64,000 nt of DNA from a virus: positions 1 to 64,000 of IMG/VR virus record IMGVR_UViG_3300020187_000009; one strand, written 5' to 3'. The first letter of the stretch is position 1. Each line of letters opens with the position of its first letter. This document shows, piece by piece, positions 5,293-56,292 of this stretch. The notes under the pieces are model-generated. The model saw only the letters and a list, made by a program, of their open reading frames with translations. It was not told where the DNA came from and did no database searches. A program made the position numbers and the translations under genes.

Positions 5293-5328
5293 AGAAACAA
5301 TACAACTTTAGCTAATATAACTTCTAAA
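5293..5328 (+). promoter_or_regulatory. Middle-type promoter signal before polymerase N-half
   Basis: GAAACAA at 5294-5300, a 14-base gap, then ATATAAC at 5315-5321, followed by TTCTAAA. The same two-part signal with the same gap precedes the clamp, helicase and gp55 genes and the RNA locus. The start codon is 17 bases further on. Confidence 0.6.
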
Positions 5329-5337
5329 ATAATTAGA

Positions 5338-6741
5338 ATGCTATTAGATATTGAACAAAAAGCCAACGAAGTCATTGTTTCATACTACAACAAAGAAGGC
5401 AAGGTAGCCTTTAAAAGGTATCCAGTATCTCAATTTGAAAATTGGGTAGTTGCTGGTGAAGATGAAAAGTGGAAAGATCAAACATATACAAATTGGGATG
5501 GACGTCCTCTTAAAAGACAGCGCTCTAGAAACTTTAATAAGTTTTCTCTAGTCTATTTTATGGATTCTCTTCCTGAGAATGATCGGAAAGAAATATTCGA
5601 GTTTAATATGCCAAGAACATATTTTGTCGATATTGAAACCGAAATAGTAGATGGTTTTCCAAAAGCGGAAGAGGCTAGAACTAGAATATTAGCGTTCTCC
5701 ATTATTACACCTGAACGCAAGGCTATCGTCTTAGGTCTTGATGATTTATCTAGCGAACAAATCAAGAAGATTGAGGATGACACACTAAAGCACTTTAGGA
5801 AATACGATCAAGATTGGGAGTTTAGCTACTATAAATTTAAGGATGAATACAACATGTTATATACGTTCTTGCATAAATTCCTACCTAAATTCCCAATGAT
5901 GACAGGATGGAATTTTATAAACTATGACTGGCAGTATATTGTAAATCGTTGTAAAAGACTCCAGATAGATCTAACTGAAATTGCAGTAACAGGAGCTCTT
6001 GATAGTAACGATAGTAGACCTTTACATATGGGTATTTTAGATTATATGCAATTATATGACAAATATGACAGATCGGTAAAGGTAAAAGAATCAAATCGCC
6101 TTGATTTTGTTGCTGGCCAAGTTCTTGATGTTGCTAAAATAAAGCACACGGGCTCTCTACAAGATCTTTATGAAAATGATTTTCAAAAGTATGTGTTTTA
6201 TAATGTAGTAGATTCTATTTTAGTATATTATATTGACGAAAAATTAAAATCAATGGAAGTTTTACTTACTCTTGCAACGATTACACAAATGCCTTTATAC
6301 AAAGCAGCAAGCCCCGTTGCAGTAACCGAAGCATTAATGGCTCGTAAGATGGCTGAGCAAAATCACAAGATTGGGGTTGATTATAATCAGAAAGATAATC
6401 AAAAAGATGGCAAATACGCAGGTGCATTTGTAAAACAACCAATAGTTGGATATTATTCTGGAGTAAGCGCATTTGATTTTGCTTCACTATATCCTTCAGT
6501 AATGAGACAGTTTAATATATCACCAGAAGCATATGTAGATATAATACCTAAGACTCAAATAGAGCAACGCAGGAAGAATACAGAAGAAATAGTTTGTGAG
6601 AATGGTGTTGTATATAAGAAAGAAGATTCAGTTCTTAAAAACATACTAGGAGACTTGTATGAGCAACGAAAAGATTATAAGAAATTATCGTACCAGTATT
6701 ACGAAAAGGCTCACGAACTCAAAAAAAGATTTGAAAAATAA
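5338..6741 (+). CDS. 43: DNA polymerase family B, N-terminal half (exonuclease, palm start)
   Basis: 467 residues. It holds the 3'-5' exonuclease motifs ExoI (FVDIETE, about 97-103), ExoII (GWNFINYDWQYI, about 190) and ExoIII (YNVVDSILVYY, about 288), then polymerase motif A (FDFASLYPSVMRQF, about 379). It continues through the fingers segment LGDLYEQRKDYKK and stops. Motifs B and C are missing here and found at 11393-12595. The two halves sum to 867 residues, close to the single-chain T4 gp43 (898). There are no intein residues at the break. The product would replicate phage DNA only with its partner half. Preceded by a middle-type promoter signal. Confidence 0.93.
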   Translation: MLLDIEQKANEVIVSYYNKEGKVAFKRYPVSQFENWVVAGEDEKWKDQTYTNWDGRPLKRQRSRNFNKFSLVYFMDSLPENDRKEIFEFNMPRTYFVDIETEIVDGFPKAEEARTRILAFSIITPERKAIVLGLDDLSSEQIKKIEDDTLKHFRKYDQDWEFSYYKFKDEYNMLYTFLHKFLPKFPMMTGWNFINYDWQYIVNRCKRLQIDLTEIAVTGALDSNDSRPLHMGILDYMQLYDKYDRSVKVKESNRLDFVAGQVLDVAKIKHTGSLQDLYENDFQKYVFYNVVDSILVYYIDEKLKSMEVLLTLATITQMPLYKAASPVAVTEALMARKMAEQNHKIGVDYNQKDNQKDGKYAGAFVKQPIVGYYSGVSAFDFASLYPSVMRQFNISPEAYVDIIPKTQIEQRRKNTEEIVCENGVVYKKEDSVLKNILGDLYEQRKDYKKLSYQYYEKAHELKKRFEK

Positions 6742-10074: not shown

Positions 10075-10521
10075 ATGAAACACATTAAATTATTTGAACA
10101 GTTTATCAATGAATCTCAATTCGCTGATGATAGTACTTCTAATCAAGATGCTAAGTTAAGGCTAAAAGAACGTACAGAACTAACAAAAAAATTAATTAAG
10201 GCAACCGGGATTACAACATGGGAAGTAGACTATAGCCATGGTTTTTTTACCATGAATACAAAGACTAAAGGAAATACCGGAACTGAAATATTTGGAATAA
10301 AAGATTTGGATTATAGTTTTACTTGGAGAATTCTTAACTCTGACGATTATGAACCATTGGCACCAAAAGAAATGCAGATAGTCGCACAACCAACAGACGG
10401 CAGCGGAGGTCGTACCAAACGCAATTGGTATGTAACAAAAGGTAATGTTGCTACAATTGATGATGTTATAAAAGCAATGTCAAACTTAGAGGTAGGTAAA
10501 AACGGTTGGAAACAAGCATAA
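10075..10521 (+). CDS. Small capsid-targeted protein (MKHIKLFEQFINE leader)
   Basis: 148 residues. The first 39 bases are nearly identical to those of neighbouring leader-bearing genes, so the leader seems to spread by duplication or recombination. Predicted cut after Glu13 (QFINE/S). The mature domain (about 135 residues) has alternating hydrophobic strands (WEVDYSHGFFTMNTKTK, YSFTWRILN) and a basic patch KRNWYVTKG. No family recognised. Followed by a terminator that separates it from the clamp gene. Late expression with the 9798 gene is likely. Confidence 0.75.
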   Translation: MKHIKLFEQFINESQFADDSTSNQDAKLRLKERTELTKKLIKATGITTWEVDYSHGFFTMNTKTKGNTGTEIFGIKDLDYSFTWRILNSDDYEPLAPKEMQIVAQPTDGSGGRTKRNWYVTKGNVATIDDVIKAMSNLEVGKNGWKQA

Positions 10522-10550
10522 AGATTTATAATATAACAAAAACTATTAAA

Positions 10551-10593: not shown

Positions 10594-10629
10594 TGAAACA
10601 AACCGATATATCCCCATATAACTTTAAAT
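10594..10629 (+). promoter_or_regulatory. Middle-type promoter signal before the clamp gene
   Basis: GAAACAA at 10595-10601, a 14-base gap, ATATAAC at 10616-10622, then TTTAAA. Lies between a terminator and the clamp start at 10648. Confidence 0.6.
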
Positions 10630-11392: not shown

Positions 11393-12595
11393 ATGGACGT
11401 GACTGGGTTACAGAGCAAACCAATTGATCAATTGACTAAAGAAGAAGCAGAGAGCCTCATTAAACAATATGAGGCACTCTCTGCTAAATATACAGCGTAT
11501 GAACAAGCGGTAAAAGTTACTTTGAACTCTATTTATGGTGCGTTTGGTAATAAGTGGTTTCACTTCTTCAATATAGATATAGCAGAATCTATTACATTAC
11601 AGGGACAGGACGCTATTCTTTACTCAGAAAATATATTAAATAAGTATTTTCATGATTTTTTCCACAAGGACGCAATTGTTCATGAGCATTTTAATATTAA
11701 GGTAAGGCATCAGCTTGAAAGACCATCTGTAATTTACATAGACACGGATTCTTGCTATGTACAGTTTGAAGAAATGTACAACTCAATAGAGTGGCTAGGA
11801 GAAGAGCTTACAATCGATACCTTTATTATTCAAATCTATAACTTTAGACTAAGGGAATATATTGCTAAGACAATGGAGAGGTATGCTGTAATCAGAAACA
11901 CTGACAATTTCTTACAATTTGAACTTGAAACAGTAGCATACTCTGGTATATGGTTAGCAAAAAAGAAGTATATACAAAACATAGCATGGGATGATAAGCT
12001 AGAGGTAACTGACAGGCATGCTTCTTTAAAGAAAGTAAAAACAATAGGATACGATACAATTCAATCATCTACTCCTCCTTTCGCAAGAAAGAAATTAGTA
12101 GATGCTCTTAAGTTACTTTTTACAAAGAATAAAAAACCAACAGCTGTAGAATTAGAAGAACTAGTTATCTTTATGAAGCAAACTAAAAAAGAGTTTGTGC
12201 TCGCTGATATTGACGATATAGCCTTTAATAAAAGAACTAATAATATTGAAAAATATATCGTTGATGATCAGATTTCATTAGAAGTTGGCCTTAAATGTCC
12301 ACCTAATGTAAAGGCTGCTGGTTTCTATAATTACTTACTAAATAATAATCAAAAATATAAGAATAAGTACAAGTTAATTGGTAACGGTGAAAAGTTAAAA
12401 CTCTATAGCGTTAAGGATAACATTAGCGATGTGTTTGCATACATGCCAAGCGAACATCCTTATGAGTTTGCTCCACCAATTGACTACGATACACAATTTG
12501 AAAAATGTATGATTGATCCTTTAAATAGAGTATTAAAGGCAATCGGTTTACAAACACTAGATACTAATTTAATTTACGCATCTGCATTATTTTAA
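11393..12595 (+). CDS. 43: DNA polymerase family B, C-terminal half (motifs B and C, thumb)
   Basis: 400 residues. Motif B, KVTLNSIYGAFGNKWF (about 43-58), and motif C, YIDTDSCYV (about 117-125), complete the palm begun in the 5338-6741 product. KKKYIQNI near 187 is the thumb-side KKxY-type motif. The first 40 residues (LTKEEAESLIKQYEALSAKY) form the second helix of the fingers, so the chain break lies at the fingers tip. The C-terminus ASALF resembles the clamp-binding tail of T4-type polymerases. It starts one base after the clamp gene and 4.65 kb from its partner, so the two halves come from separate transcription units. Confidence 0.93.
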   Translation: MDVTGLQSKPIDQLTKEEAESLIKQYEALSAKYTAYEQAVKVTLNSIYGAFGNKWFHFFNIDIAESITLQGQDAILYSENILNKYFHDFFHKDAIVHEHFNIKVRHQLERPSVIYIDTDSCYVQFEEMYNSIEWLGEELTIDTFIIQIYNFRLREYIAKTMERYAVIRNTDNFLQFELETVAYSGIWLAKKKYIQNIAWDDKLEVTDRHASLKKVKTIGYDTIQSSTPPFARKKLVDALKLLFTKNKKPTAVELEELVIFMKQTKKEFVLADIDDIAFNKRTNNIEKYIVDDQISLEVGLKCPPNVKAAGFYNYLLNNNQKYKNKYKLIGNGEKLKLYSVKDNISDVFAYMPSEHPYEFAPPIDYDTQFEKCMIDPLNRVLKAIGLQTLDTNLIYASALF

Positions 12596-12968: not shown

Positions 12969-14067
12969 TAAAACATTTAGCTTTGCAGATTTAAATGCAG
13001 AGTTAGCAGAATTAAATCCCCTTGGATCTGTTATGGACCAGTCCACTTTTTCTGAAGTTACTGAATGGATTAACACGGGAAACTATCACTTGAATGCGTG
13101 TGTTGGTGGTTCTCTTTTTAAAGGATGGCCAAATAACAGATCTTGTTCTGTTGCAGGTCCTTCAGGAACAGGTAAAACTTTCTTGACTCTAAATTCAGTA
13201 CGAGAAGCAATAAACATGGGTTATAATATAATCTATTATGATTCTGAAGCGGCTGTAGATAAAGAACAAATGATTAAGTTTGGCATTGATATTACCAAGG
13301 TAAACTATCAGCCGATTAATACCGTTCAAGAGTTTAGAACATCAGTAACTACGATTACTAAGAAGATGCAGGAGATTAAAAGATCGGGTGGAAATATACC
13401 AAAGCTAATGATTATCTTAGATTCTGCAGGTAACTTAGCAACTGCAAAGGAAATAGCAGATGCTGCAAGTGGAAGCGAAAAGAGTGATATGACTCGTTCA
13501 AAGATTCTTAAATCAATTTTTAGAATTATAATGACCCCATTGGCCGATTTAAAGATTCCATTTATTTTTACAAATCATACATACCAATCTCAATCCTTTA
13601 TTCCAATGCAAATAGCAGGCGGTGGAACTGGACCAGAGTATGCGGCCTCTATTGTATTGATGCTGAACAAGGCACAATTAAAAGATGGCGCAGATAAAGT
13701 CGGTATTATTGTAACAGCAAAGCCTTCTAAGAATCGTTTTGCAAAACCAACTAATATTAAATTCCATTTGAATTTTAGTGAAGGTATGAATCCTTATGTC
13801 GGTCTCGAACAGTACGCAACCTGGGATATTTGTGGCATCACTAGAGGAACTATCGAAAAGGGTGTTAAAGTTCCTAAGTCTACCGCAAGAGGTTGGATCT
13901 GTGATCATCTGGATACAGTAGTACCAAACTCGGAATTCTTTACAGAAACGGTGTTTACTCGCGAGGTTCTAGAAAAAATAGACGAACACATACAGCCTCT
14001 TTTTAATTACAATTCAGAATCAAGTACTTTAGACATTGAAGAAATGTTAGAAGAAACAGAAGACTAA
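12955..14067 (+). CDS. uvsX: UvsX/RecA-like recombinase
   Basis: 370 residues, close to T4 UvsX (391). Walker A GPSGTGKT lies near 69-76, a Walker-B-like strand LMIILDSAGNL near 149-159, and the RecA-type glutamine/loop region IFTNHTYQSQ near 203-212. It catalyses strand exchange and recombination-dependent replication, working with gp46/gp47 encoded 1.8 kb downstream. The acidic C-terminus (LDIEEMLEETED) is typical of RecA family proteins. Close linkage to polymerase, helicase and nuclease genes supports the call. Confidence 0.92.
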   Translation: MAKNNKTFSFADLNAELAELNPLGSVMDQSTFSEVTEWINTGNYHLNACVGGSLFKGWPNNRSCSVAGPSGTGKTFLTLNSVREAINMGYNIIYYDSEAAVDKEQMIKFGIDITKVNYQPINTVQEFRTSVTTITKKMQEIKRSGGNIPKLMIILDSAGNLATAKEIADAASGSEKSDMTRSKILKSIFRIIMTPLADLKIPFIFTNHTYQSQSFIPMQIAGGGTGPEYAASIVLMLNKAQLKDGADKVGIIVTAKPSKNRFAKPTNIKFHLNFSEGMNPYVGLEQYATWDICGITRGTIEKGVKVPKSTARGWICDHLDTVVPNSEFFTETVFTREVLEKIDEHIQPLFNYNSESSTLDIEEMLEETED

Positions 14068-14088
14068 AATTGTATATAACCTTTAAAT
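14052..14088 (+). promoter_or_regulatory. Middle-type promoter signal before the helicase gene
   Basis: GAAACAG at 14053-14059 lies inside the end of uvsX; after 14 bases comes ATATAAC at 14074-14080, then TTTAAA. The helicase start is at 14097. Confidence 0.55.
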
Positions 14089-14096
14089 AACTATAT

Positions 14097-15413
14097 ATGC
14101 AATTCGGACAAGACTTTGAAAAAATATTTTTTAGACTATCATTAGTAAAACCAAAGTATCTTCAAAGTATTAAATCTGGGTATTATACTTCAGAAGAAAT
14201 TGATATTTTAAGCTACCTTGCTAATAAATTTTACATTAAGTTTCATGAAGCTCCTGGAAAGGAGCAACTTAAACTCTTAGCTCAAAATAGTAAAAAATCA
14301 AAAGAAAAGATAACAGACGGTATTCTTGATGTTATTTTTGGAGTTGACTTAGATCAATATGACGATGAATGGCTAACTAGTACTGCCGAATCTTGGATCA
14401 AGTGGAGAACGTTTGACACTTCTCTTACAGATACTATTGAATTTATTAAAACGACGAAAGTAACTCCTGAAAATTCAGACAGTATTATTCAAAAGGTTAA
14501 GGGTTTAATTAACGAGAGAAACAACATTACGTTTAACTCTGATCTTGGATTAAACTTTTTTAATCCAGATGATCACGATCAAAAAGAATCTGAAAAAGTA
14601 AGTTCTGGATATAATTTTGTTGATCGAGTTCTTAGTGGAGGTTATGATAAAGGAGGTAACTTAGTGGTATATGCTGGAGAGCAAAATATTGGTAAGTCAA
14701 TATATCTTGCAAACGATGCTGCTAATTTTGTTAAAATGGGAGTAAACACTGTTGTTATTACGGCAGAGATGGCCGCTCATAAATTCGTAAAGAGGATAGG
14801 TTCTAATTTATTGTCAATTGATATTAATGAATACGCTGAAAAAGCAAAAAACAAAGACAGTATTAAAAGAAGGCTTGAGACAGTAGGAGATGGACTAACT
14901 CCACCCGGTCAGCTATTTATTAAACAAATGCCAACATCACAGGCTACTGTTTTAGATATTGATGCTTATTTAACACAAGTTGAAGAAGAGCATCAGGTTA
15001 AGATAGGAGCAGTAGTTATTGACTATATTAACATTTTAGCAAACTATAGAAATCCTAATAGCGAAAACACATACTTAAAAATAAAGCAAATAGCTGAAGA
15101 TTTAAGAGCAATGGGTCAAAGACATGATTGGTTAATAGTTACAGCAACTCAGATAACAAGAAGCGGATATAATTCAAGCGATATTACGATGACTGATATT
15201 GCCGAATCTGCAGGACTTTCACATACTGCAGATGTTATGTTTGGAATTATTCAAGATGATTTAATGAGAGCAAGTAATGAATATTGGCTTAAAATATTAA
15301 AGATGAGAGATGGAGAAGGAAAAGGAACTAAATGTCAGTTAAACATTAATTGGAACTATATGCGATTAATAGAGACTGATAATATAACAAACAGTAATTT
15401 ACACGGAATATAA
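14097..15413 (+). CDS. 41: Replicative DNA helicase (gp41/DnaB-like)
   Basis: 438 residues; T4 gp41 is 475. A P-loop variant, GEQNIGKS, sits near 194-201 in a RecA-like core, followed by TAEMAAHKF, VVIDYINILANYR (Walker B) near 321 and LIVTATQITRSG near 350, all typical of DnaB-family hexameric helicases (F4 type). It unwinds the fork ahead of the split polymerase. The stop overlaps the start of the next gene. No separate primase gene is recognisable in the window. Confidence 0.88.
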   Translation: MQFGQDFEKIFFRLSLVKPKYLQSIKSGYYTSEEIDILSYLANKFYIKFHEAPGKEQLKLLAQNSKKSKEKITDGILDVIFGVDLDQYDDEWLTSTAESWIKWRTFDTSLTDTIEFIKTTKVTPENSDSIIQKVKGLINERNNITFNSDLGLNFFNPDDHDQKESEKVSSGYNFVDRVLSGGYDKGGNLVVYAGEQNIGKSIYLANDAANFVKMGVNTVVITAEMAAHKFVKRIGSNLLSIDINEYAEKAKNKDSIKRRLETVGDGLTPPGQLFIKQMPTSQATVLDIDAYLTQVEEEHQVKIGAVVIDYINILANYRNPNSENTYLKIKQIAEDLRAMGQRHDWLIVTATQITRSGYNSSDITMTDIAESAGLSHTADVMFGIIQDDLMRASNEYWLKILKMRDGEGKGTKCQLNINWNYMRLIETDNITNSNLHGI

Positions 15414-20784: not shown

Positions 20785-20820
20785 AGAAACAAATGCGTTT
20801 TTTTTAATATAACATCTAAA
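20785..20820 (+). promoter_or_regulatory. Middle-type promoter signal before gp55
   Basis: GAAACAA at 20786-20792, 14-base gap, ATATAAC at 20807-20813, then ATCTAAA. It would make the late sigma gene a middle gene. Confidence 0.6.
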
Positions 20821-20836
20821 CAATTAAATTAACAAA

Positions 20837-21217
20837 GTGGCTAGAAAAAAGAATTACTTAAACAATAAAGATCTTTACGCTGAAATCGTATTATCAAAAG
20901 AACAGGATAAGCTCACAAAAACCGCTGAAAAAATGCTAGTGATGCTTGCTGAAAGGGCCATTAGAAAATTAACATATGTTAGTGATGATGATAGACAAGA
21001 TTGTCTTCAATTTGCACTGTTGGACTTACTAAAGTACTGGCGTAATTTTAATCCAAAGTATACTAACGCATTCGCTTACTTTACAGAGATAGCTAAAAGA
21101 GGATACGCAAAGGGATGGAATAAGATACACCCTAAAAAATATAAGTCGACATTAAGTTTGGACAAGGGTAACTCCGGAGGTTCTGAATATAATGGAGGAG
21201 GACTCTTTAACATCTAA
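20837..21217 (+). CDS. 55: Late transcription sigma factor (gp55-like)
   Basis: 126 residues from a GTG start. It contains a stripped-down sigma-70 region 2: DDRQDCLQFALLDLLKYW, followed by FNPKYTNAFAYFTEIAKRGYAKGW, the pattern of T4 gp55 and its cyanophage relatives. It has no region 4, as in gp55, which reads a -10-only late promoter. The C-terminus (LSLDKGN, then GGGLFNI) is a plausible clamp-binding tail, as T4 gp55 is activated by the clamp. It would read the GATATATAA signals before virion genes. Coupled to the next gene by overlap of one base. Confidence 0.8.
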   Translation: MARKKNYLNNKDLYAEIVLSKEQDKLTKTAEKMLVMLAERAIRKLTYVSDDDRQDCLQFALLDLLKYWRNFNPKYTNAFAYFTEIAKRGYAKGWNKIHPKKYKSTLSLDKGNSGGSEYNGGGLFNI

Positions 21218-24307: not shown

Positions 24308-24316
24308 GATATATAA
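24308..24316 (+). promoter_or_regulatory. Late-type promoter signal (GATATATAA)
   Basis: Exact match ending 20 bases before the protease-scaffold start at 24337. Confidence 0.6.
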
Positions 24317-26787: not shown

Positions 26788-26796
26788 GATATATAA
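26788..26796 (+). promoter_or_regulatory. Late-type promoter signal (GATATATAA) upstream of the capsid gene
   Basis: Exact match ending 82 bases before the capsid start, giving an unusually long leader with GGGCGACAG and CAGAAAGCCC segments that may fold. Confidence 0.55.
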
Positions 26797-29065: not shown

Positions 29066-30814
29066 ATGAAATTTAAAAAAGTTTTACTATTCGAAGAACT
29101 TCAAAACCAAGAAGCAACTCAAACTAGACCTTCTGCTGATTCTAACACATCGAGCTCTGAGGTTAAAGTAGGAGATTCTAAAAAAGAAGCAATCAGAGAC
29201 GTCGACAATATTTTATTAAACCTTAAAAAGCTATCAGCAAGTATTGTTGAGGATATAGAAATGTCAGAAGAAGATTCAGTAATTGAAGATTTTGCCAATT
29301 CTATATTTTATATTTCTTCATCTCTCTTAGAAGATAATACTGGTAATAGATTATTTAGTGAATCAGTAGTTACTGAAGCTTCAGGAGATTTAAAAGTTGG
29401 AGATACTGGTGTCGATTATAATGACAACGTTGTAGAAATAATTGCTATTGGTAGATTTGCTAAAATTGCTAAAATGTTTAAGAAAGAAACAAAAGAAGAT
29501 GCTGAAGATTATGGGATTGAAGAATTAATGGTAAATACAGATTATTATCTTACTAAAAATATTGAATCACCTGAAGGTAATGTTGGAGATTATTACATTT
29601 ATCCAGTAAGATATGATATGGCTAATTACTGGGGATTAGATCCTCTAGACGAATCAGTAGTTAACGAAGCTAAATTTAAAAAAGGACAGTATATTAAAGC
29701 CAAAAAAGATAGCGATAATTTTGATGGAGATGTTTATGATAAAACTAACGACGTTGATGGATCTGAAATCTTAAAAAACTCATCGTTCGAAATTTACGAA
29801 ATTGGTAAAGATGAAGTTATTCTTTGGAGTGATGCGGATGAAGTGGAATACTCTATAGATCCAGATGATCTTAAGAATTTCGTAAAGGAATCAGTAGTTA
29901 CTGAAGCTGATGGCGCAATGAAAAGTGCAATTGATTTTATGATTAGAGCACCTAAGGCTAGAAAGGCCCAAGATAAAGTTAATAAGCTAAAATTAAAAAT
30001 TGCAGGTATGGAAGCATCAATAGCAGCATCTGATGCTGAGAAGCCTGTAAAAGATAAGCTTAAGGCGAAGGTAGACATGATGAAGGCGCAATCTAAAGAC
30101 TTACAATCTTCTGTAAATGACAGATGGGATGATAAGGGCAATATTGTTAAAAAAGCAAAACAATCTGAAAAGATTAAAGGAGAGCTATCCGTTCTTAAAA
30201 CTGCAATGGGTGAAGAAGGTTCAGATAAGGGCGAACTTAAAAAAACAGCGGCTAACTTAAAGGCAAGACTTCGCGATGAAGAAAGTGCGTTAAAGGATAT
30301 GGAACCTAATAAAGAAGAACAAGCAGATGCTGTTGATCAATTAAAGAAAGAAAAAGAAGCTAAGGAAAAAGAAGCTAAGGAAAAAGAAGCGGCAAAGGAC
30401 AAAGGAACTAGCGGTAAAGACAAAGGAACTAGCGGCAAGGACGAAGGAACTTCAGGTAAAGACAAAGGAACTAGCGGCAAGGACAAAGGAACTTCAGGTA
30501 AAGACAAAGGAACTAGCGGCAAGGACGAAGGAACTTCAGGTAAAGACAAAGGAACTAGCGGCAAGGACGAAGGAACTTCAGGTAAAGACAAAGGAACTAG
30601 CGGCAAGGACAAAGGAACTAGCGGCAAGGACGAAGGAACTTCAGGTAAAGACAAAGGAACTAGCGGCAAGGACAAAGGAACTTCAGGTAAAGACAAAGGA
30701 ACTTCAGGTAAAGACAAAGGAACTTCAGGTAAAGACAAAGGAACCTCAGGTATAAATGATTCAGTATATGTTAACGAATCAGTAGCACAAAAATTTAAAA
30801 GACTAATGAAATAA
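29066..30814 (+). CDS. Late polyprotein with repeated ESVVTEA sites and a KDKGTSG repeat tail
   Basis: 582 residues. It starts MKFKKVLLFEELQNQEA, a variant of the capsid-targeting leader. Three near-identical sites, ESVVTEAS (about 99), ESVVNEAK (about 196) and ESVVTEAD (about 275), fit a (hydrophobic)-x-Glu/Ala protease pattern and divide the chain into about 100-residue domains, followed by a helical Lys/Glu region. Residues 444-562 are 17 copies of KD(K/E)GTSG. The C-terminus is NESVAQKFKRLMK. Probably cut in the head into several internal proteins plus a flexible basic/acidic tail. No enzymatic motif is recognised. Confidence 0.8.
   Translation: MKFKKVLLFEELQNQEATQTRPSADSNTSSSEVKVGDSKKEAIRDVDNILLNLKKLSASIVEDIEMSEEDSVIEDFANSIFYISSSLLEDNTGNRLFSESVVTEASGDLKVGDTGVDYNDNVVEIIAIGRFAKIAKMFKKETKEDAEDYGIEELMVNTDYYLTKNIESPEGNVGDYYIYPVRYDMANYWGLDPLDESVVNEAKFKKGQYIKAKKDSDNFDGDVYDKTNDVDGSEILKNSSFEIYEIGKDEVILWSDADEVEYSIDPDDLKNFVKESVVTEADGAMKSAIDFMIRAPKARKAQDKVNKLKLKIAGMEASIAASDAEKPVKDKLKAKVDMMKAQSKDLQSSVNDRWDDKGNIVKKAKQSEKIKGELSVLKTAMGEEGSDKGELKKTAANLKARLRDEESALKDMEPNKEEQADAVDQLKKEKEAKEKEAKEKEAAKDKGTSGKDKGTSGKDEGTSGKDKGTSGKDKGTSGKDKGTSGKDEGTSGKDKGTSGKDEGTSGKDKGTSGKDKGTSGKDEGTSGKDKGTSGKDKGTSGKDKGTSGKDKGTSGKDKGTSGINDSVYVNESVAQKFKRLMK
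30395..30751 (+). repeat. 17 tandem 21-base repeats encoding KD(K/E)GTSG
   Basis: Uninterrupted array of 21-base units alternating between GGAACTAGCGG and GGAACTTCAGG codon forms, with K or E at the third residue. Prone to length change by slippage. Confidence 0.95.
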
Positions 30815-31341: not shown

Positions 31342-31378
31342 AGAAACAAAGTGAGCATTTGCGAATATAATTACTAAA
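31342..31378 (+). promoter_or_regulatory. Middle-type promoter signal before the clamp loader gene
   Basis: GAAACAA at 31343-31349, 15-base gap, ATATAAT at 31365-31371, then TACTAAA. It is in the 62-base divergent spacer. Confidence 0.5.
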
Positions 31379-31388
31379 CGAAAAATAT

Positions 31389-32348
31389 ATGATGAATTCA
31401 ATACACCAGCTGTTCACTGAGAAGTATCGTCCTAAGAATTTAGAAGAGTTAATCTTACCTGACAGAGTCATGGGTAAATTTAAGGATGGTCTTGTACAGA
31501 ACATGCTTTTTTCAGGAAGTCCAGGTACTGGTAAAACTTCAACGGCAAAGGCAATAGTTAATCAATTTGAATTACCATACCTGTATATTAACGCATCTAC
31601 CGATACTTCTGTAGATGTTATTAGAACAAGAATTACTGATTTTTGCTCTACTGTATCTATTATGGATAAGCCTGGAATGTTTAAAGTTGTAATCCTCGAC
31701 GAGCTAGATGGTGTATCTGATCAATTCTTTAAGGCGCTTCGTGCAACTATGGAAACCTTTGCATCGAATAGTAGATTTATTGCAACGTGTAATTACATTA
31801 ATAAATTACCAGACCCAATACTTTCTAGATTTGAAGTAATTAACTTTGATTTTGATAAGGAAGAAGAATCTGAATTAACTAAAAAATACATAAAGAGAGT
31901 TTATCAGATTTGTAAAAATGAAGAGCTAAGTATTGAAAAGGACGCACTTGTCGAATTTGTTCGTCGTAACTTTCCAGATCTTAGAAATACTCTTAATAAG
32001 TTACAGGGATTCAAAACACAAGGAACTCACAATATTACAATAAACGACGTAAAGCGATTTAACTCAGTATTTAAAGATGTCTTTGCACTAGTATTCAATC
32101 AAACAGATCCTGCAGTAAACTATAAAACACTAGTAAGCGGCTATTCTAATAGAGTAGATGAGGTTCTTGCAGCATTAGGATCTGAATTTATTGAATACAT
32201 ACAACAAGAAAAACAACAAAGTGTTAAGCACATACCTCAAATTATAGTAGCAGTTGCACATCATCAATCACAAAGAATACATGTGATCGATCCTGTCATA
32301 ACAATGTTAAGTTGTGTATATTCATTACAAACAATAGTTAATTCATAA
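31389..32348 (+). CDS. 44: Clamp loader large subunit gp44 (AAA+ ATPase)
   Basis: 319 residues, exactly the size of T4 gp44 (319). FTEKYRPKNLEELIL at the N-terminus; Walker A GSPGTGKT near 43-50; Walker B VILDELDG near 101; sensor 1 FIATCNYINK near 133; SRF arginine finger near 147. It opens and loads the sliding clamp for the split polymerase and late transcription. The start could be either of two adjacent ATGs (31389 or 31392). Confidence 0.94.
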   Translation: MMNSIHQLFTEKYRPKNLEELILPDRVMGKFKDGLVQNMLFSGSPGTGKTSTAKAIVNQFELPYLYINASTDTSVDVIRTRITDFCSTVSIMDKPGMFKVVILDELDGVSDQFFKALRATMETFASNSRFIATCNYINKLPDPILSRFEVINFDFDKEEESELTKKYIKRVYQICKNEELSIEKDALVEFVRRNFPDLRNTLNKLQGFKTQGTHNITINDVKRFNSVFKDVFALVFNQTDPAVNYKTLVSGYSNRVDEVLAALGSEFIEYIQQEKQQSVKHIPQIIVAVAHHQSQRIHVIDPVITMLSCVYSLQTIVNS

Positions 32349-40066: not shown

Positions 40067-40075
40067 GATATATAA
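40067..40075 (+). promoter_or_regulatory. Late-type promoter signal (GATATATAA)
   Basis: Exact match ending 27 bases before the tail sheath start. Confidence 0.6.
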
Positions 40076-40102: not shown

Positions 40103-43003
40103 ATGGCACTAAGTCCTCAATTACAACAATTCAAGAGTTCAGGTGTTTATCGATTAGAATTCGATAAATCACAAACTGTCAATATCCCTGCAGAAACTAT
40201 TAGATTAGTTGTAGGTCACTCTAAAAAAGGACCATACAACACTCCAGTTTTTGTCGAAGATACTGAAACTTTTGTACAAATCTTTGGTTCTATCGATAAG
40301 AACCTAGAAAGAAAAGGAATGTATTTCCACAGATCTGCTCTTGAGACTCTATCTAGAGGTCCAATTATAGCATTAAACCTTACTTCTTCAAATGACGTTG
40401 ATAAAGTATGGTGGAATTCTCCAACTACTAATGGTTCAATTCAAGGAAACCCTGCAGCTAGCGGATCTACCCTATATAAGAACATCTTTAATAGAGATAA
40501 GTTCTGGACACCGGAAGATCAAAAGTTATTAACAGTAGCTGGAAATACTGCAGAAACTTCAAACAACGCACTAACATTTACTAACATTAAACAAGATCCA
40601 ATAACTATAATAGTTACTCAATCTGGAGATACTAGAGGATTTGATGTTACTGCTAGAGAATGGTATGGCGAAGGAAATACACCAGAAGGAGTAGATGATC
40701 TAGATTATATTTCAGATTATATGGTTGACGTTTATGTATTTAAAGGAAGATTTGTAACTGCTGATTTAAACAACGATCCAACTTATGGAAACTACTTTAA
40801 TTCAAACGGTATAATTCCAGCACAGTTTGGAAATTTTGCAAACTTAAGAGAAGTTTCTCTTCTTGCAAAATATACCGGTTCATTAATTCCAGATTTTCAA
40901 GATAATGAAGGAAAACAATACTATATTGAAACATTAATTAACGCAGAAGCTAGAAGAACTGGTTTATTTGCAGCAGTTAATGAAGATGCTCTAGACAAAA
41001 TTGATTTTGTTGGTGAAGCTTTTGAAATCTTTCAAGACTATGAATTATTATCGCATGTTGTTGTTCAACAACAACCTAGTCAATTAAATGACCCAAGAAA
41101 CTCAGCGTTTGATAAAATATGCGAAGTTACTGGAACTGAAATGTTAATAAAAAATGTATCAGTATCAGATTACAATACAATGGTATCTACTGGTCTTTTA
41201 TCTGATAACTTCCTAGTAGCTAATGTTACTGGAGAATATACTAAGATTCTTACAACTTCAAGAAACGCAATAACTGGAGATGTTACTGTTGTTGCTGAAG
41301 AGGCAATCAATAAGGCATACTATGAAAAATTTGCAGCTGATTTAAATGCAGCATCATTTGCACAGGCTGGTTTTGTTGGACAAAACTTAGTAATATCATA
41401 TGCTGGTACTTTTTCACCTGGAGATCTTACTGCTGGAAAATATCTTCCAAGCTCAAATAGCGGAGAATATACAAAAATTCTTTCAGTAACAGATGATCTA
41501 GGAGGAGCTGGTACAAGTGGAAGTGGTGGTATTGTAACTATCGTTCCTGCTGGAAATGCTGGATTTAGTTCTGGATTAGCTAGCGGAACTGCTGGTAACC
41601 TAACAACATACGCTCAATCAAACAATACAGTGTTTGATCTATTTGAAATTGGAGTTAACGAAAGAACATTCTTCTTCCCAACTGGAGCTGGATGGACTTT
41701 TGCAAATGCTGCAACAGCAGGAGAGTTTAAGTACGTTTACACAGTGCCTGCTGCAACTGACGAAGATACTTCGTTAACAGATAACATTAAAGTTGGTATG
41801 TATCTTCCAATACAAGGAAGCGATAAACTAGCAAGAATTCTTGAAATTAGAAGAAAATTCGAAGCTGGCGTTAACGGTGGAAAGGATGACAGATATACTT
41901 ATACTTTTATCTGCCACAGAGATGTACCAACCGCTCCGGCATACGCATTAGGATCTTTTGATTCTGCATCAGATGCATATAAGCCATTTGTATTAGAAGC
42001 TGCGCAAAATAGCGAAAAGACAATCAAAGAATTAATTGATGTTCTAATCCCTGGAAATGGTGTTTCTAACACTCTAATTGATAAGGACGCTATTACTTAT
42101 AGATACTTAGTAGATACCTTTGGATCATTTGAGGGTGCTAGTGGACTTCTTAATAAAGAACAATACACACAGTTGGCAAAAGCAAGACAAAACGTTTCTG
42201 CAATTCTTAACGCACCTATGGTAAAAGAATTTAAGGCTTCGACTAATCCTTCTTTCATTGATGAAAACACAGGATCTTTCCAAACAAGATACATTCCAAC
42301 TGGAGGTAACTTAAACTTAAATCCTCAGGCTCTATATACTTTACCTTCAATTAATGAAGGAGCAAGTTATGGATTCTTCTTTTCACCTGGATTAAACGTT
42401 ATAGAAAACGGAAGAGTTAAAGTTGTTCCACCAGCGGCGTTTGTATCAAACAACTTTGTTGATAAGTATACTGATTCATTACCATGGTCAATTGTAGCAG
42501 GTCCTAGAAGAGGAGTTGTTGGAGGTACTGGAGTACAAGGAATAGAATACGCATATGATAAAGACGATAGAGATTACTTAGAGCCATTTGGAATTAACCC
42601 AATTATCTTCGAAAGAGGAGCTGGTATTGTAATCAAAGGTAATAAAACAGCACAACAATCAATTCAATCGGCGCTTTCTACTGCTCACGTAAGAGAAGTA
42701 TTAATCTACATTGAAGATGGTCTAGCTGAAATCTTGAAAAACTATTTATTTGAATTCAACACTGCTCAAACAAGACTTGAAATTAAAACTCTTGCGGACA
42801 GCTTTATGGAATCTGTTAAAAAAGATCAAGGTGTTTACGATTACAGAAACATAATGGATGGAACTAATAATACTTCTGAAGTTATAGATAACAATATGGG
42901 AGTCATAGACACTTATGTTGAACCAGTTAAAGGATTAGAAATTCTAGTTTCTAGAGTAACAGTACTAAACACTGGAGAAATAGCAACAGGAAACTTTGCA
43001 TAA
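40103..43003 (+). CDS. 18: Tail sheath protein gp18
   Basis: 966 residues, much longer than T4 gp18 (659). N-terminus FKSSGVYRLEFDKSQTVNI, then RLVVGHSKKGPYNTPVFV and TFVQIFGSIDKNLERKGMY is typical of sheath proteins; the C-terminus (GIVIKGNKTAQQSIQSAL, then VREVLIYIEDGLAEILKNYL and VDTYVEPVKGLEILVSRV) is the conserved contractile core. The extra 300 residues lie in the middle (about 350-630) as Gly/Ala/Thr-rich beta domains, including AGTSGSGGI. These would project from the tail surface. Confidence 0.93.
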   Translation: MALSPQLQQFKSSGVYRLEFDKSQTVNIPAETIRLVVGHSKKGPYNTPVFVEDTETFVQIFGSIDKNLERKGMYFHRSALETLSRGPIIALNLTSSNDVDKVWWNSPTTNGSIQGNPAASGSTLYKNIFNRDKFWTPEDQKLLTVAGNTAETSNNALTFTNIKQDPITIIVTQSGDTRGFDVTAREWYGEGNTPEGVDDLDYISDYMVDVYVFKGRFVTADLNNDPTYGNYFNSNGIIPAQFGNFANLREVSLLAKYTGSLIPDFQDNEGKQYYIETLINAEARRTGLFAAVNEDALDKIDFVGEAFEIFQDYELLSHVVVQQQPSQLNDPRNSAFDKICEVTGTEMLIKNVSVSDYNTMVSTGLLSDNFLVANVTGEYTKILTTSRNAITGDVTVVAEEAINKAYYEKFAADLNAASFAQAGFVGQNLVISYAGTFSPGDLTAGKYLPSSNSGEYTKILSVTDDLGGAGTSGSGGIVTIVPAGNAGFSSGLASGTAGNLTTYAQSNNTVFDLFEIGVNERTFFFPTGAGWTFANAATAGEFKYVYTVPAATDEDTSLTDNIKVGMYLPIQGSDKLARILEIRRKFEAGVNGGKDDRYTYTFICHRDVPTAPAYALGSFDSASDAYKPFVLEAAQNSEKTIKELIDVLIPGNGVSNTLIDKDAITYRYLVDTFGSFEGASGLLNKEQYTQLAKARQNVSAILNAPMVKEFKASTNPSFIDENTGSFQTRYIPTGGNLNLNPQALYTLPSINEGASYGFFFSPGLNVIENGRVKVVPPAAFVSNNFVDKYTDSLPWSIVAGPRRGVVGGTGVQGIEYAYDKDDRDYLEPFGINPIIFERGAGIVIKGNKTAQQSIQSALSTAHVREVLIYIEDGLAEILKNYLFEFNTAQTRLEIKTLADSFMESVKKDQGVYDYRNIMDGTNNTSEVIDNNMGVIDTYVEPVKGLEILVSRVTVLNTGEIATGNFA

Positions 43004-43009
43004 TAAAGA

Positions 43010-43018
43010 TATATAAAA
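43010..43018 (+). promoter_or_regulatory. Late-type promoter signal (GATATATAA)
   Basis: Exact match ending 18 bases before the tail tube start. Confidence 0.6.
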
Positions 43019-47771: not shown

Positions 47772-48479
47772 ATGAGCGAACAACTTAAACAATCATTTAC
47801 ATTCGAGTCTAGCGTATTGAGTAAAATCAATGGTATTAGTAATGGTGAATCTGTTAGTTCAAATAGTAATGTTCCATCTGGAAAGCAACTGAATTCTGGA
47901 GAATCTGGAATATCTAATTCAAATTCAAAGGTTACTGAAAATAATTCTTCAATGTCTACTGAGATTGACAAGGGTGATAGAAGCGTTAATGAAAGAGAGA
48001 ATCCTGGCAAGAATAAAGATATTTCTAGGAATAAAATGGAAAGTGAATCCAAAAAACCAATTCCTAATCAAAAGCTAGAAATTAAAAATCAGGACGTTAT
48101 ATCAAAGGACGATGGAAATGGAAACATTACATCAGAAGTAATAAATAAGACACCAGCTGCCGAGCATACTGAGCTAAACAGTAAGAAAGATGAGGCAAGA
48201 GGCGATATGATGAATTATACAATGGAGTCATTCTCTAAAGTAGGTCAGCCTGAAACTGGTGAAAAACAACAAGACCAAAAATCTGTAAATAAGCCAGCTA
48301 AAAAAGGCAATGGAGTTGGTAATATACCAGCAATTGATTCAAAGAAACCAACGCCAAGTTATCCTAGCCCTGGAAATATTAACGTTAAAACAGGCCCAAG
48401 ACCTTCAAAGGGACCTACTCCTAACAGGCCTAATGTTCGCGCTCCAAAGATTTCTTTTCCTAAAATGAAACTAAGATAG
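47772..48479 (+). CDS. Disordered, hydrophilic late protein
   Basis: 235 residues from the ATG at 47772 (an in-frame ATG at 47703 lies inside the tape measure gene). The sequence is low in hydrophobic residues and rich in Ser/Asn/Lys/Pro (SNSNVPSGKQLNSGESG, KKPTPSYPSPGN), so mostly disordered; only the termini look ordered (LKQSFTFESSVLSKI and APKISFPKMKLR). The ending resembles that of the 45121-terminating frame on the other side of the tape measure gene, suggesting a shared partner. Function unknown; probably tail assembly. Confidence 0.65.
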   Translation: MSEQLKQSFTFESSVLSKINGISNGESVSSNSNVPSGKQLNSGESGISNSNSKVTENNSSMSTEIDKGDRSVNERENPGKNKDISRNKMESESKKPIPNQKLEIKNQDVISKDDGNGNITSEVINKTPAAEHTELNSKKDEARGDMMNYTMESFSKVGQPETGEKQQDQKSVNKPAKKGNGVGNIPAIDSKKPTPSYPSPGNINVKTGPRPSKGPTPNRPNVRAPKISFPKMKLR

Positions 48480-48510
48480 GATTGGTCATATAAATTCTAA
48501 ACTAAGAATT

Positions 48511-48765
48511 ATGATCACATCAACAATTTCACAATACAATAGCTCTACTCTAAAATCTGCGTCATATAATTATGATAAGCATACTCTATTAGTTCAATTT
48601 AACGGAGCATCTTATTTATACAGTGGGGTTAATTTAGAAGATTGGAACAAATTTAACCTTGCAGATTCTCAAGGCATTGCGCTTAACCAATATATTAAAG
48701 GTAAGTATGAATTTAAAAAGATCAATGAAGATTCTGATATAGCAATTAAAGAAAAAACCCAATAA
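48511..48765 (+). CDS. KTSC-domain protein
   Basis: 84 residues: STISQYNSSTLKSASYNYD, then LLVQFNGASYLYSGVNLED and IKGKYEFKKI. This is the compact KTSC domain, first noted at the C-terminus of some lysyl-tRNA synthetases and common as a lone phage protein. The biochemical role is not established. It lies one base before the oxygenase-like gene and probably shares its transcript. Confidence 0.75.
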   Translation: MITSTISQYNSSTLKSASYNYDKHTLLVQFNGASYLYSGVNLEDWNKFNLADSQGIALNQYIKGKYEFKKINEDSDIAIKEKTQ

Positions 48766-53593: not shown

Positions 53594-53627
53594 TAAACTT
53601 TTTAAAAACTAAACATATAACTAATCA

Positions 53628-54101
53628 ATGAAAATAATACTAGTAGGAAAAGCGGCATCTGGTAAAGACCATTTAAAAAATAGATTACGTGAACGCGGAT
53701 TTAAGGCAGGAATTAGTCATACGACTAGGAAACCAAGAAATGGTGAAGTAGATGGTGTTGATTATCATTTTATATCTGAGTTTGAATTCATTGAAATGGT
53801 AGGAAACGATAAATTTATCGAGCACATGGACTTTAATGGAGGATTTTATGGACAAACTAAAGAAGATTTCGATAATGCAGACGTAATGATTATGTCTAAG
53901 GACGGTTTAGATATTTTACCAAAAGAATACAGAGACCAGGCTATGGTAATTTATTTAGACATTGATCGAAAATCTAGAATAGAAAGATTAAACAACAGGA
54001 ATGATACAAATGACACGCTATTAAGGAGATTAGATGCTGATGATCTTCAATTTGAAAAATTTGAAGACTTTGATTTTAGAGTAACGAACAATAATTTTTA
54101 A
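53628..54101 (+). CDS. gmk: Guanylate kinase-like nucleotide kinase
   Basis: 157 residues, a short guanylate kinase. P-loop GKAASGKD near 7-14 with Asp where Ser/Thr is usual, GMP-binding HTTRKPRNGEVDGVDYHF near 31-48, then FIEHMDFNGGFYGQTKED and VIYLDIDRKSRIERL. It would convert (d)GMP to (d)GDP for phage DNA synthesis, complementing the ribonucleotide reductase. The Asp substitution is something I recall from phage enzymes too, so it need not mean inactivity. Confidence 0.85.
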   Translation: MKIILVGKAASGKDHLKNRLRERGFKAGISHTTRKPRNGEVDGVDYHFISEFEFIEMVGNDKFIEHMDFNGGFYGQTKEDFDNADVMIMSKDGLDILPKEYRDQAMVIYLDIDRKSRIERLNNRNDTNDTLLRRLDADDLQFEKFEDFDFRVTNNNF

Positions 54102-55587: not shown

Positions 55588-55665
55588 TTGTTAATAACTT
55601 TTTGAAAATAATTCACCAAAAGTTTTCCCGATTCATTTTAAATGATTATATTTATACTATAATTA
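55586..55665 (+). promoter_or_regulatory. Early-type promoter element, 80-base copy
   Basis: Begins inside the stop codon of the previous gene and ends 18 bases before the ECF sigma gene. Nearly identical to the copies at 52061, 55271 and 59981. Confidence 0.75.
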
Positions 55666-55683
55666 AAAAACAAACATATACTT

Positions 55684-56292
55684 ATGAGTAAAACAAAAAA
55701 AACGTACAGAGAATTAGGAGAAGCATTCTTCGAGCATCGTGATGAAAAAACATATAACGAGCTTTACAATAGAGTTAGGCCAGGATTAAAGAGTTATATT
55801 TGGAAAATTCTTAAAGATCAAGAAGCTGTAGAAGACGTTATGGCAAATACTCTTATTAAACTCTGGACTAAAATTGAACAATATAAGCCACAATATCAAA
55901 TTACTACATGGCTTTATCGTATTGCGTTTAACGAGAGCTTAGGGTATATTAGAGAACGTAATAAAAAGTATAGTTTAGATGGAATGAAAGAGTTCGGTAT
56001 AGAAGTTAATGGTAACAGTAGACTGAATGAAACTCTAAGCATGGCTATGGAAGATCACACAGATAAATCTGAAGCTGAATTCTGGGACGAAGAAAATGAA
56101 CTAATGGAAAGATATGGAAATGCGCTAGAGTGTATTAACAATCTTAAACCAATGTATCGTGATATTCTCGCAGACAGATTAATTGCAAAGATGAAATACG
56201 AAGATATTGCTAATAAATATGGAGTACCATTACAAACAGTTAAAAATCGCATACGTAGAGGTAAATCATTAGTAATTGACGCAATGTCTTAA
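55684..56292 (+). CDS. ECF-type sigma-70 family RNA polymerase sigma factor
   Basis: 202 residues with regions 2 and 4 only, the ECF layout. Region 2: EAVEDVMANTLIKLWTKIEQ near 51-70, then ITTWLYRIAFNESLGYIRER. Region 4: LKPMYRDILADRLIAKMKYED followed by the helix-turn-helix IANKYGVPLQTVKNRIRRGKSL near 178-199. It directs RNA polymerase to a promoter subset and is unlike gp55. It has its own 80-base early element. A reasonable inference is that it drives the GAAACAA/ATATAAC promoters, because many ECF factors read a GAAC/AAC-type -35. Probably taken from a Bacteroidota host. Confidence 0.88.
   Translation: MSKTKKTYRELGEAFFEHRDEKTYNELYNRVRPGLKSYIWKILKDQEAVEDVMANTLIKLWTKIEQYKPQYQITTWLYRIAFNESLGYIRERNKKYSLDGMKEFGIEVNGNSRLNETLSMAMEDHTDKSEAEFWDEENELMERYGNALECINNLKPMYRDILADRLIAKMKYEDIANKYGVPLQTVKNRIRRGKSLVIDAMS

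Follow-up and report, generated by a model that had tools for sequence, protein, structure and literature searches.

Stepwise control of transcription by phage-encoded sigma factors is already known from SPO1, which has a middle sigma (gp28) and late sigmas (gp33/gp34), and in which gp28 and gp34 are phage-encoded sigmas of a transcription cascade (PMC9429907). Sigma factors have also been reviewed for all group 2 (T4-like) jumbo phages, including phages of Bacteroidetes; these are described as minimal HTH or RpoD-like, and the term ECF does not occur in that review (PMC7824862). The crAss-like phages (e.g., cr50_1), presumed phages of Bacteroidota, carry a sigma-W-annotated ECF-like sigma with 29% identity to the one analysed here; they belong, however, to Crassvirales and not to the T4-like phages, and their helix, TVKSDLNKAK, lacks the R..R pair. 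Our search of open-access papers turned up neither an ECF middle sigma nor a GAAAC-N17-TATAA middle promoter described for T4-like phages, and an ECF middle sigma in such phages appears to be undescribed in the papers covered.

We analysed a 64,000-nt stretch of DNA (the window), which corresponds to positions 1-64000 of a virus record 148,784 bases long. The T4 core genes found (gp23 capsid, gp20 portal, prohead protease, UvsX, gp44, gp55, and SbcC/D-like gp46/47) confirmed that the phage is T4-like, as the original prediction had claimed. The nearest relative in the phage collection was LR756500, a 462-kb metagenomic phage with a portal identity of 59.5%, and the portal gene had 42 relatives in IMG/VR. 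Further along the contig, at 119236-120414 (L004:17236-18414), the phage encodes an inositol-3-phosphate synthase-like protein behind a middle-type promoter; because this protein is 70-75% identical to Pedobacter and Dyadobacter genes, it points to a Bacteroidota host. Taken together, the sequences point to a T4-related virus of marine Bacteroidota bacteria. The gp43 DNA polymerase is split into an exonuclease-side gene (5338-6741) and a polymerase-side gene (11393-12595), an arrangement also found in Rhodothermus phage RM378. A 21-bp coding repeat array occupies 30311-30807, inside ORF 29066-30814, and GGAGC-rich short-period repeats lie near the contig end (about 146-148 kb).

The candidate middle switch is encoded by the following gene.

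55684..56292, + strand: ECF-type sigma factor, 202 aa, ATG start; region 2 at residues 27-93, region 4 at residues 147-194; 118 relatives in IMG/VR

Pfam matches above the curated cut-offs defined these two regions (Sigma70_r2, PF04542, 3.2e-12; Sigma70_r4_2, PF08281, 1.1e-7), and the NCBIfam sigma70-ECF family (TIGR02937) scored 72.8 bits versus a cut-off of 42.9. The AlphaFold model, built from 29 relatives, had a mean pLDDT of 77.7 and consisted of two helical domains and a disordered linker (105-126). Structure comparisons (Foldseek, VIA-align) matched sigma-E region 2 (Z 12.9, 94 residues, rmsd 2.2), SigW (Z 12.5, 94 residues, rmsd 3.0), and sigma-E region 4 on -35 DNA (Z 11.2, 67 residues, rmsd 2.3), with AlgU and further ECF sigmas also among the matches; in the PDB family-profile search, SigW was best (5WUQ, 3.9e-12), and AlgU and sigma-E also matched. 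Regions 1.1 and 3 are absent from the protein, the linker between region 2 (ending near 93-103) and region 4 (starting near 135-147) is short, and in sequence and fold it is nearest to ECF members. The ORF is real, and the Pfam, NCBIfam, and structure matches agree on an ECF sigma with regions 2 and 4, as had been proposed.

Scanning IMG/VR with an alignment as query returned 118 phage contigs with relatives of the sigma, compared with 0 matches in a single-protein scan of viral contigs. The sigma was present in all five fragments that extend at least 30 kb past the portal gene (G003, G004, G007, G015, G027), and lay at the same place with respect to the portal gene in five relatives. We recognised no anti-sigma gene adjoining the phage sigma gene. 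One GTDB scan detected no bacterial relatives, so that a recent host origin is not demonstrable.

Listing the gene upstream regions over the whole contig revealed three signals: early, middle, and late, names that rest on gene content and analogy with T4. Within 150 nt upstream, 24 genes were marked early, 21 middle, and 25 late; the sets are nearly separate, and the signals mostly lie at tight distances from the start codon. The early signal is a long element that has TATATTTA or TATATTAG at its end, with the -7 box consensus TATATTWR; the middle signal is (G/T)AAAC, 17 bp, and TATAA; the late signal is GATATATA. The sigma, the three promoter classes, the assignment of genes to them, and the conservation described below can be read directly, at the level of sequence. 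The early boxes TATATTTA and TATATTAG match the -7 box, of TAnnTTTG type, that belongs to the primary sigma of flavobacteria (PMC9723704), and one such element precedes the sigma gene.

55588..55671, + strand: early-type promoter element of the sigma gene, member of a repeat family; -7 box TATATTTA at 55647-55654

This element of ~84 bp has near-identical copies ahead of 52152, 55366, and 60074, and related copies precede about 20 genes of the contig. Among 66 distinct upstream regions of the sigma in relatives, 62 carried the host-type -7 box (14% in shuffles), and none carried a strict middle or a late signal. With its repeated copies and conserved box, the early-type element postulated ahead of the sigma gene is real.

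Middle-type signals preceded the following genes of the window, among them gp55.

5294..5320, + strand: middle promoter GAAAC-N17-TATAA, DNA polymerase N-terminal-half gene (5338-6741)
10509-10536, + strand: second middle site (N18) ahead of the 10648 gene
10595..10621, + strand: middle promoter, 10648 gene and, in line, DNA polymerase C-terminal-half gene (11393-12595); conserved in relative G004
14053..14079, + strand: middle promoter, DnaB-like helicase gene (14097-15413); 5/11 relatives
20786..20812, + strand: middle promoter, gp55; 16/19 distinct upstream regions in relatives
20837..21217, + strand: gp55-like late sigma; PHROG 234 (late sigma), 9.6e-11
31343..31370, + strand: middle promoter (N18), clamp loader gp44 (31389-32348); 11/11 relatives
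48467..48493, + strand: middle promoter, KTSC-domain gene (48511-48765); 23/23 relatives
53594..53620, + strand: middle promoter, TAAAC variant, guanylate kinase-like gene (53628-54101); 40/59 relatives, loose pattern

The middle promoters originally cited at 5293 and 20785 are thus genuine GAAAC-N17-TATAA sites, and gp55, which had likewise been ascribed to the phage, is present. The 10648 protein had no PHROG, Pfam, or PDB match.

We then investigated the spacing and composition of the middle signal, which is bipartite. The contig contains 20 GAAAC-Nn-TATAA sites at N17 and 4 at N18, with 0-3 at the other spacers from 10 to 25. When six relatives were pooled, GAAAC ranked first of the 1024 pentamers located 17 bp before TATAA (57 vs 3.7 expected, p 8e-47), followed by TAAAC (26 vs 5.2 expected). 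Across 981 kb around 60 distinct related sigmas, 149 sites occurred at N17 and 41 at N18, with 2-13 at other spacers. Changing a single base of the motif mostly brought the counts in these regions down to background; the exceptions were a first-position T (86) and, weakly, an A in place of the third -10 base (31). The -35 core GAAC/GAAAC, initially put forward as the left half of the middle signal, is best restricted to (G/T)AAAC, which a constant spacer of 17 bp separates from TATAA. Coding repeats overwhelmed an unbiased search for dyads, although GAAAC-N14-TAGTA in Sphingomonas phage PAU still emerged; GAAAC-N13-TATGG in LR756500 was rejected as a promoter, being a coding repeat.

In several relatives (L015, L017, L021, L032 and others), the GAAAC box upstream of gp55 lies in the terminator hairpin loop of the preceding gene, so that terminator and promoter overlap there. 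This would suit a reading in which GAAAC, instead of being a promoter element, represents the GAAA tetraloop of intrinsic terminators that precede the genes, yet of the N17 sites, 141 of the 149 near related sigmas and 18 of the 20 in the contig are in no hairpin of at least 7 bp, and the 17-bp spacing to TATAA is unchanged there. We rejected the terminator loop as a general explanation, which is now exceedingly improbable, while the overlap stays at some loci.

The recognition helix of the phage sigma, Q184-TVKNRIRRG-193, was compared with that of SigW, for which a crystal structure of region 4 on the -35 element places R175/R172 at G-35, T171/T168 at A-34, and K170 at C-31 of GAAAC (PMC6713349). 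In the alignment, these correspond to R192/R189, N188/T185, and K187 of the phage protein, respectively; 4 of the 5 hydrogen-bonding positions by which SigW reads GAAAC are identical. Helix residues T-K-N-R..R are invariant in 29 aligned relatives and in the 38%-identical LR756500 sigma, and the string QT(V/I)KNR..RG is kept in the relatives examined. The helix variants (RRG, LRG) showed no covariation with the -35 element; GAAAC and TAAAC are retained with either variant. With a GAAAC promoter class and a SigW-like helix both found, binding of the ECF -35 type is predicted from sequence, and we infer that GAAAC is what this sigma reads. Against this reading, TATAA departs from the -10 customary for ECF sigmas; Flavobacterium psychrophilum has CGT in its ECF-type motif (PMC9723704). 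LR756500 encodes four sigma-70 family proteins (L121, L131, L138, L143), and its ortholog of the phage sigma has an insertion of roughly 40 residues directly ahead of the recognition helix.

Phage sigmas can also be non-essential, as with the sporulation-like sigmas of Bacillus phages (PMC9429907), and the present one might be an auxiliary or host-reprogramming gene of that sort with no role in middle transcription. We consider this very unlikely, given its occurrence in the 118 phage contigs, its single position relative to the portal in five relatives, the invariance of its DNA-reading residues, the matching promoter class on core replication genes, and the one GTDB scan without a bacterial relative.

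A replacement of the MotA/AsiA system of T4 had also been predicted, and the searches in three records (G000, G004, G015; 130-176 kb, contigs that may be incomplete) were in line with this: AsiA (PF09010) had no match in any of them, and MotA (PF09114) had none in G000 and G015 and, in G004, one sub-threshold match that lies within a long frame. For T4-style sigma appropriation, another activator would have to bind GAAAC while the host primary sigma reads the -10, leaving the ECF sigma with a different role. In T4, the MotA box replaces the -35 box with AsiA-remodelled sigma-70 (PMC2988021), and TATAA does resemble a generic -10. However, T4 middle promoters keep the host -10, with the MotA box 12 bp (+/-1) away (PMC2988021), whereas here the -10 is TATAA and not the host-type TAnnTTTG of the early class, neither box is of host type, and the spacer of 17 is a sigma-promoter spacing. 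Considering also the AsiA and MotA searches and the fit of the phage sigma helix to GAAAC, we hold such appropriation to be improbable, and favour direct reading of the middle promoters by the phage sigma.

The late signal was located ahead of head and tail genes.

24308..24315, + strand: late box GATATATA, prohead protease; 17/17 relatives
26788..26795, + strand: late box GATATATA, major capsid protein gp23; 13/15 relatives
40067..40074, + strand: late box GATATATA, tail sheath gene; 4/4 relatives
43008..43015, + strand: late box GATATATA, tail tube gene; late in 9/9 relatives, middle in 0/9

The GAAAC-N17-TATAA at 42990, which overlaps the tail tube late box, is probably there by chance, since it is not conserved in any of the nine relatives. 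The presumed reader of GATATATA is gp55. At least seven ORFs of the window (9783, 10075, 26203, 56442, 56766, 57067, 62829) start with a common N-terminal motif, M(K/Q)(H/Y)(I/V)(K/R/Q)L(F/Y)EQF(I/V/L/T)(N/S/T)(E/K), preceded in ORF 9783 by a five-residue extension. The motif resembles the T4 capsid-targeting sequence cut by the prohead protease, and these ORFs probably encode internal head proteins; three of them come after the sigma gene, behind a late box (56410).

The gene-by-gene counts, which refer to distinct upstream regions of orthologs, gave these classes at the frequencies stated above: middle for gp55, gp44, the KTSC gene, and the guanylate kinase-like gene, and late for the protease, gp23, tail tube, and sheath. 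The portal upstream regions had GATATATA in 11/20 and ATATATA in 20/20, those of DNA ligase were mixed (early 6/14), and those of UvsX orthologs were without middle or late signal. Since the sigma is early, gp55 and gp44 are middle, and head and tail genes are late in the relatives, the order would be host sigma, ECF sigma, and gp55. The promoter class of each gene in the relatives and the SigW-like helix support this chain, which had been the core of the original prediction, and we consider it highly probable that the phage ECF sigma is the middle-gene switch; early to middle to late would then be the temporal order as well. In such a programme, host RNA polymerase with the Bacteroidota primary sigma would transcribe the early genes, including the sigma, from TATATTWR (TAnnTTTG-type) promoters. 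The phage sigma would bind the host core polymerase and direct it to (G/T)AAAC-N17-TATAA promoters, with region 4 reading the GAAAC -35 box and region 2 the TATAA -10 box. These promoters would serve the polymerase, helicase, clamp loader, and gp55, and gp55 would in turn drive the late head and tail genes from GATATATA.

Sigma and motif were expected to occur together in related phages, and they do: besides the 149 N17 sites around the 60 related sigmas, LR756500 has both an ortholog (38% identity) and the motif (19 at N17 and 9 at N18 in 240 kb). MA9V-2 and PTm1 had neither a detected sigma ortholog or helix signature nor a motif excess (0-1 at N17 in the 180 and 160 kb examined), and LR756502, LR745206, and the Lak phages, which have ECF sigmas with other helices, showed no clear motif excess over the reversed control. 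In PAU, whose host is presumably Sphingobacterium, a TGAAACTT-N-TAGTATAAT class is strongly represented (23 at N17, extended -10 TAGTATAAT) ahead of genes such as ligase and helicase; no sigma ortholog was detected there, and none of its ORFs of at least 100 aa has the sigma helix signature. Something else can therefore read GAAAC, and the presence of this sigma does not follow from GAAAC alone in a phage of Bacteroidota. PAU, which has its own TGAAAC-N17-TATAAT promoter class, encodes a sigma-70-like protein at the start of its record (JQ362498.1, 94-1182); the annotation of this protein, internal capsid vertex protein subunit 2, would be in keeping with a sigma packaged in the virion.

The PAU class, together with the several ECF sigmas encoded by flavobacteria (PMC9723704), would be compatible with a host alternative or ECF sigma acting on the middle promoters and the phage sigma having other targets, for instance genes of the host. 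However, eight Bacteroidota genomes, picked via a phage-like inositol-phosphate synthase gene and none of them the proven host, showed no GAAAC-N17-TATAA excess over the control, and across phages the motif goes with the recognition helix of the sigma. Reading by a host sigma therefore has only a small probability, and the phage sigma remains the favoured reader.

These results make it likely that a large undescribed group of marine Bacteroidota T4-like phages swapped sigma appropriation for a three-tier relay (host sigma; ECF sigma on GAAAC-N17-TATAA; gp55 on GATATATA), with code and helix conserved to ~38% sigma identity. From sequence alone, one would thereby obtain the complete transcription programme of T4-like phages that have not been cultured, in a form open to testing. 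Bacteroidota would gain a candidate pair of sigma and promoter, and the genes of many environmental phage contigs could be sorted into early, middle, and late.

SigW of Bacillus subtilis shares with the phage sigma its fold, four of five helix positions, and a GAAAC-containing -35 box (TGAAAC); it differs as a bacterial stress sigma with an anti-sigma, RsiW, and its -10 is CGTA. SPO1 resembles the present phage in its sigma cascade on host RNA polymerase, and the promoter hierarchy and conservation found here fit a gp28-like functional kind, i.e., an early sigma that would serve middle promoters. SPO1 is, however, a Bacillus phage and not T4-like, its gp28 is not known to be an ECF sigma and reads another promoter, and the late switch here is a T4-type gp55. 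As in T4, middle promoters serve replication and late-switch genes, and the late step uses gp55; in T4, however, it is the host sigma itself that is remodelled, with the host -10 retained, whereas here a separate sigma would act with its own -35/-10 pair, suggesting that an ECF sigma, a switch of an altogether different kind, can take the place of the T4 middle switch with the gp55 late step kept.
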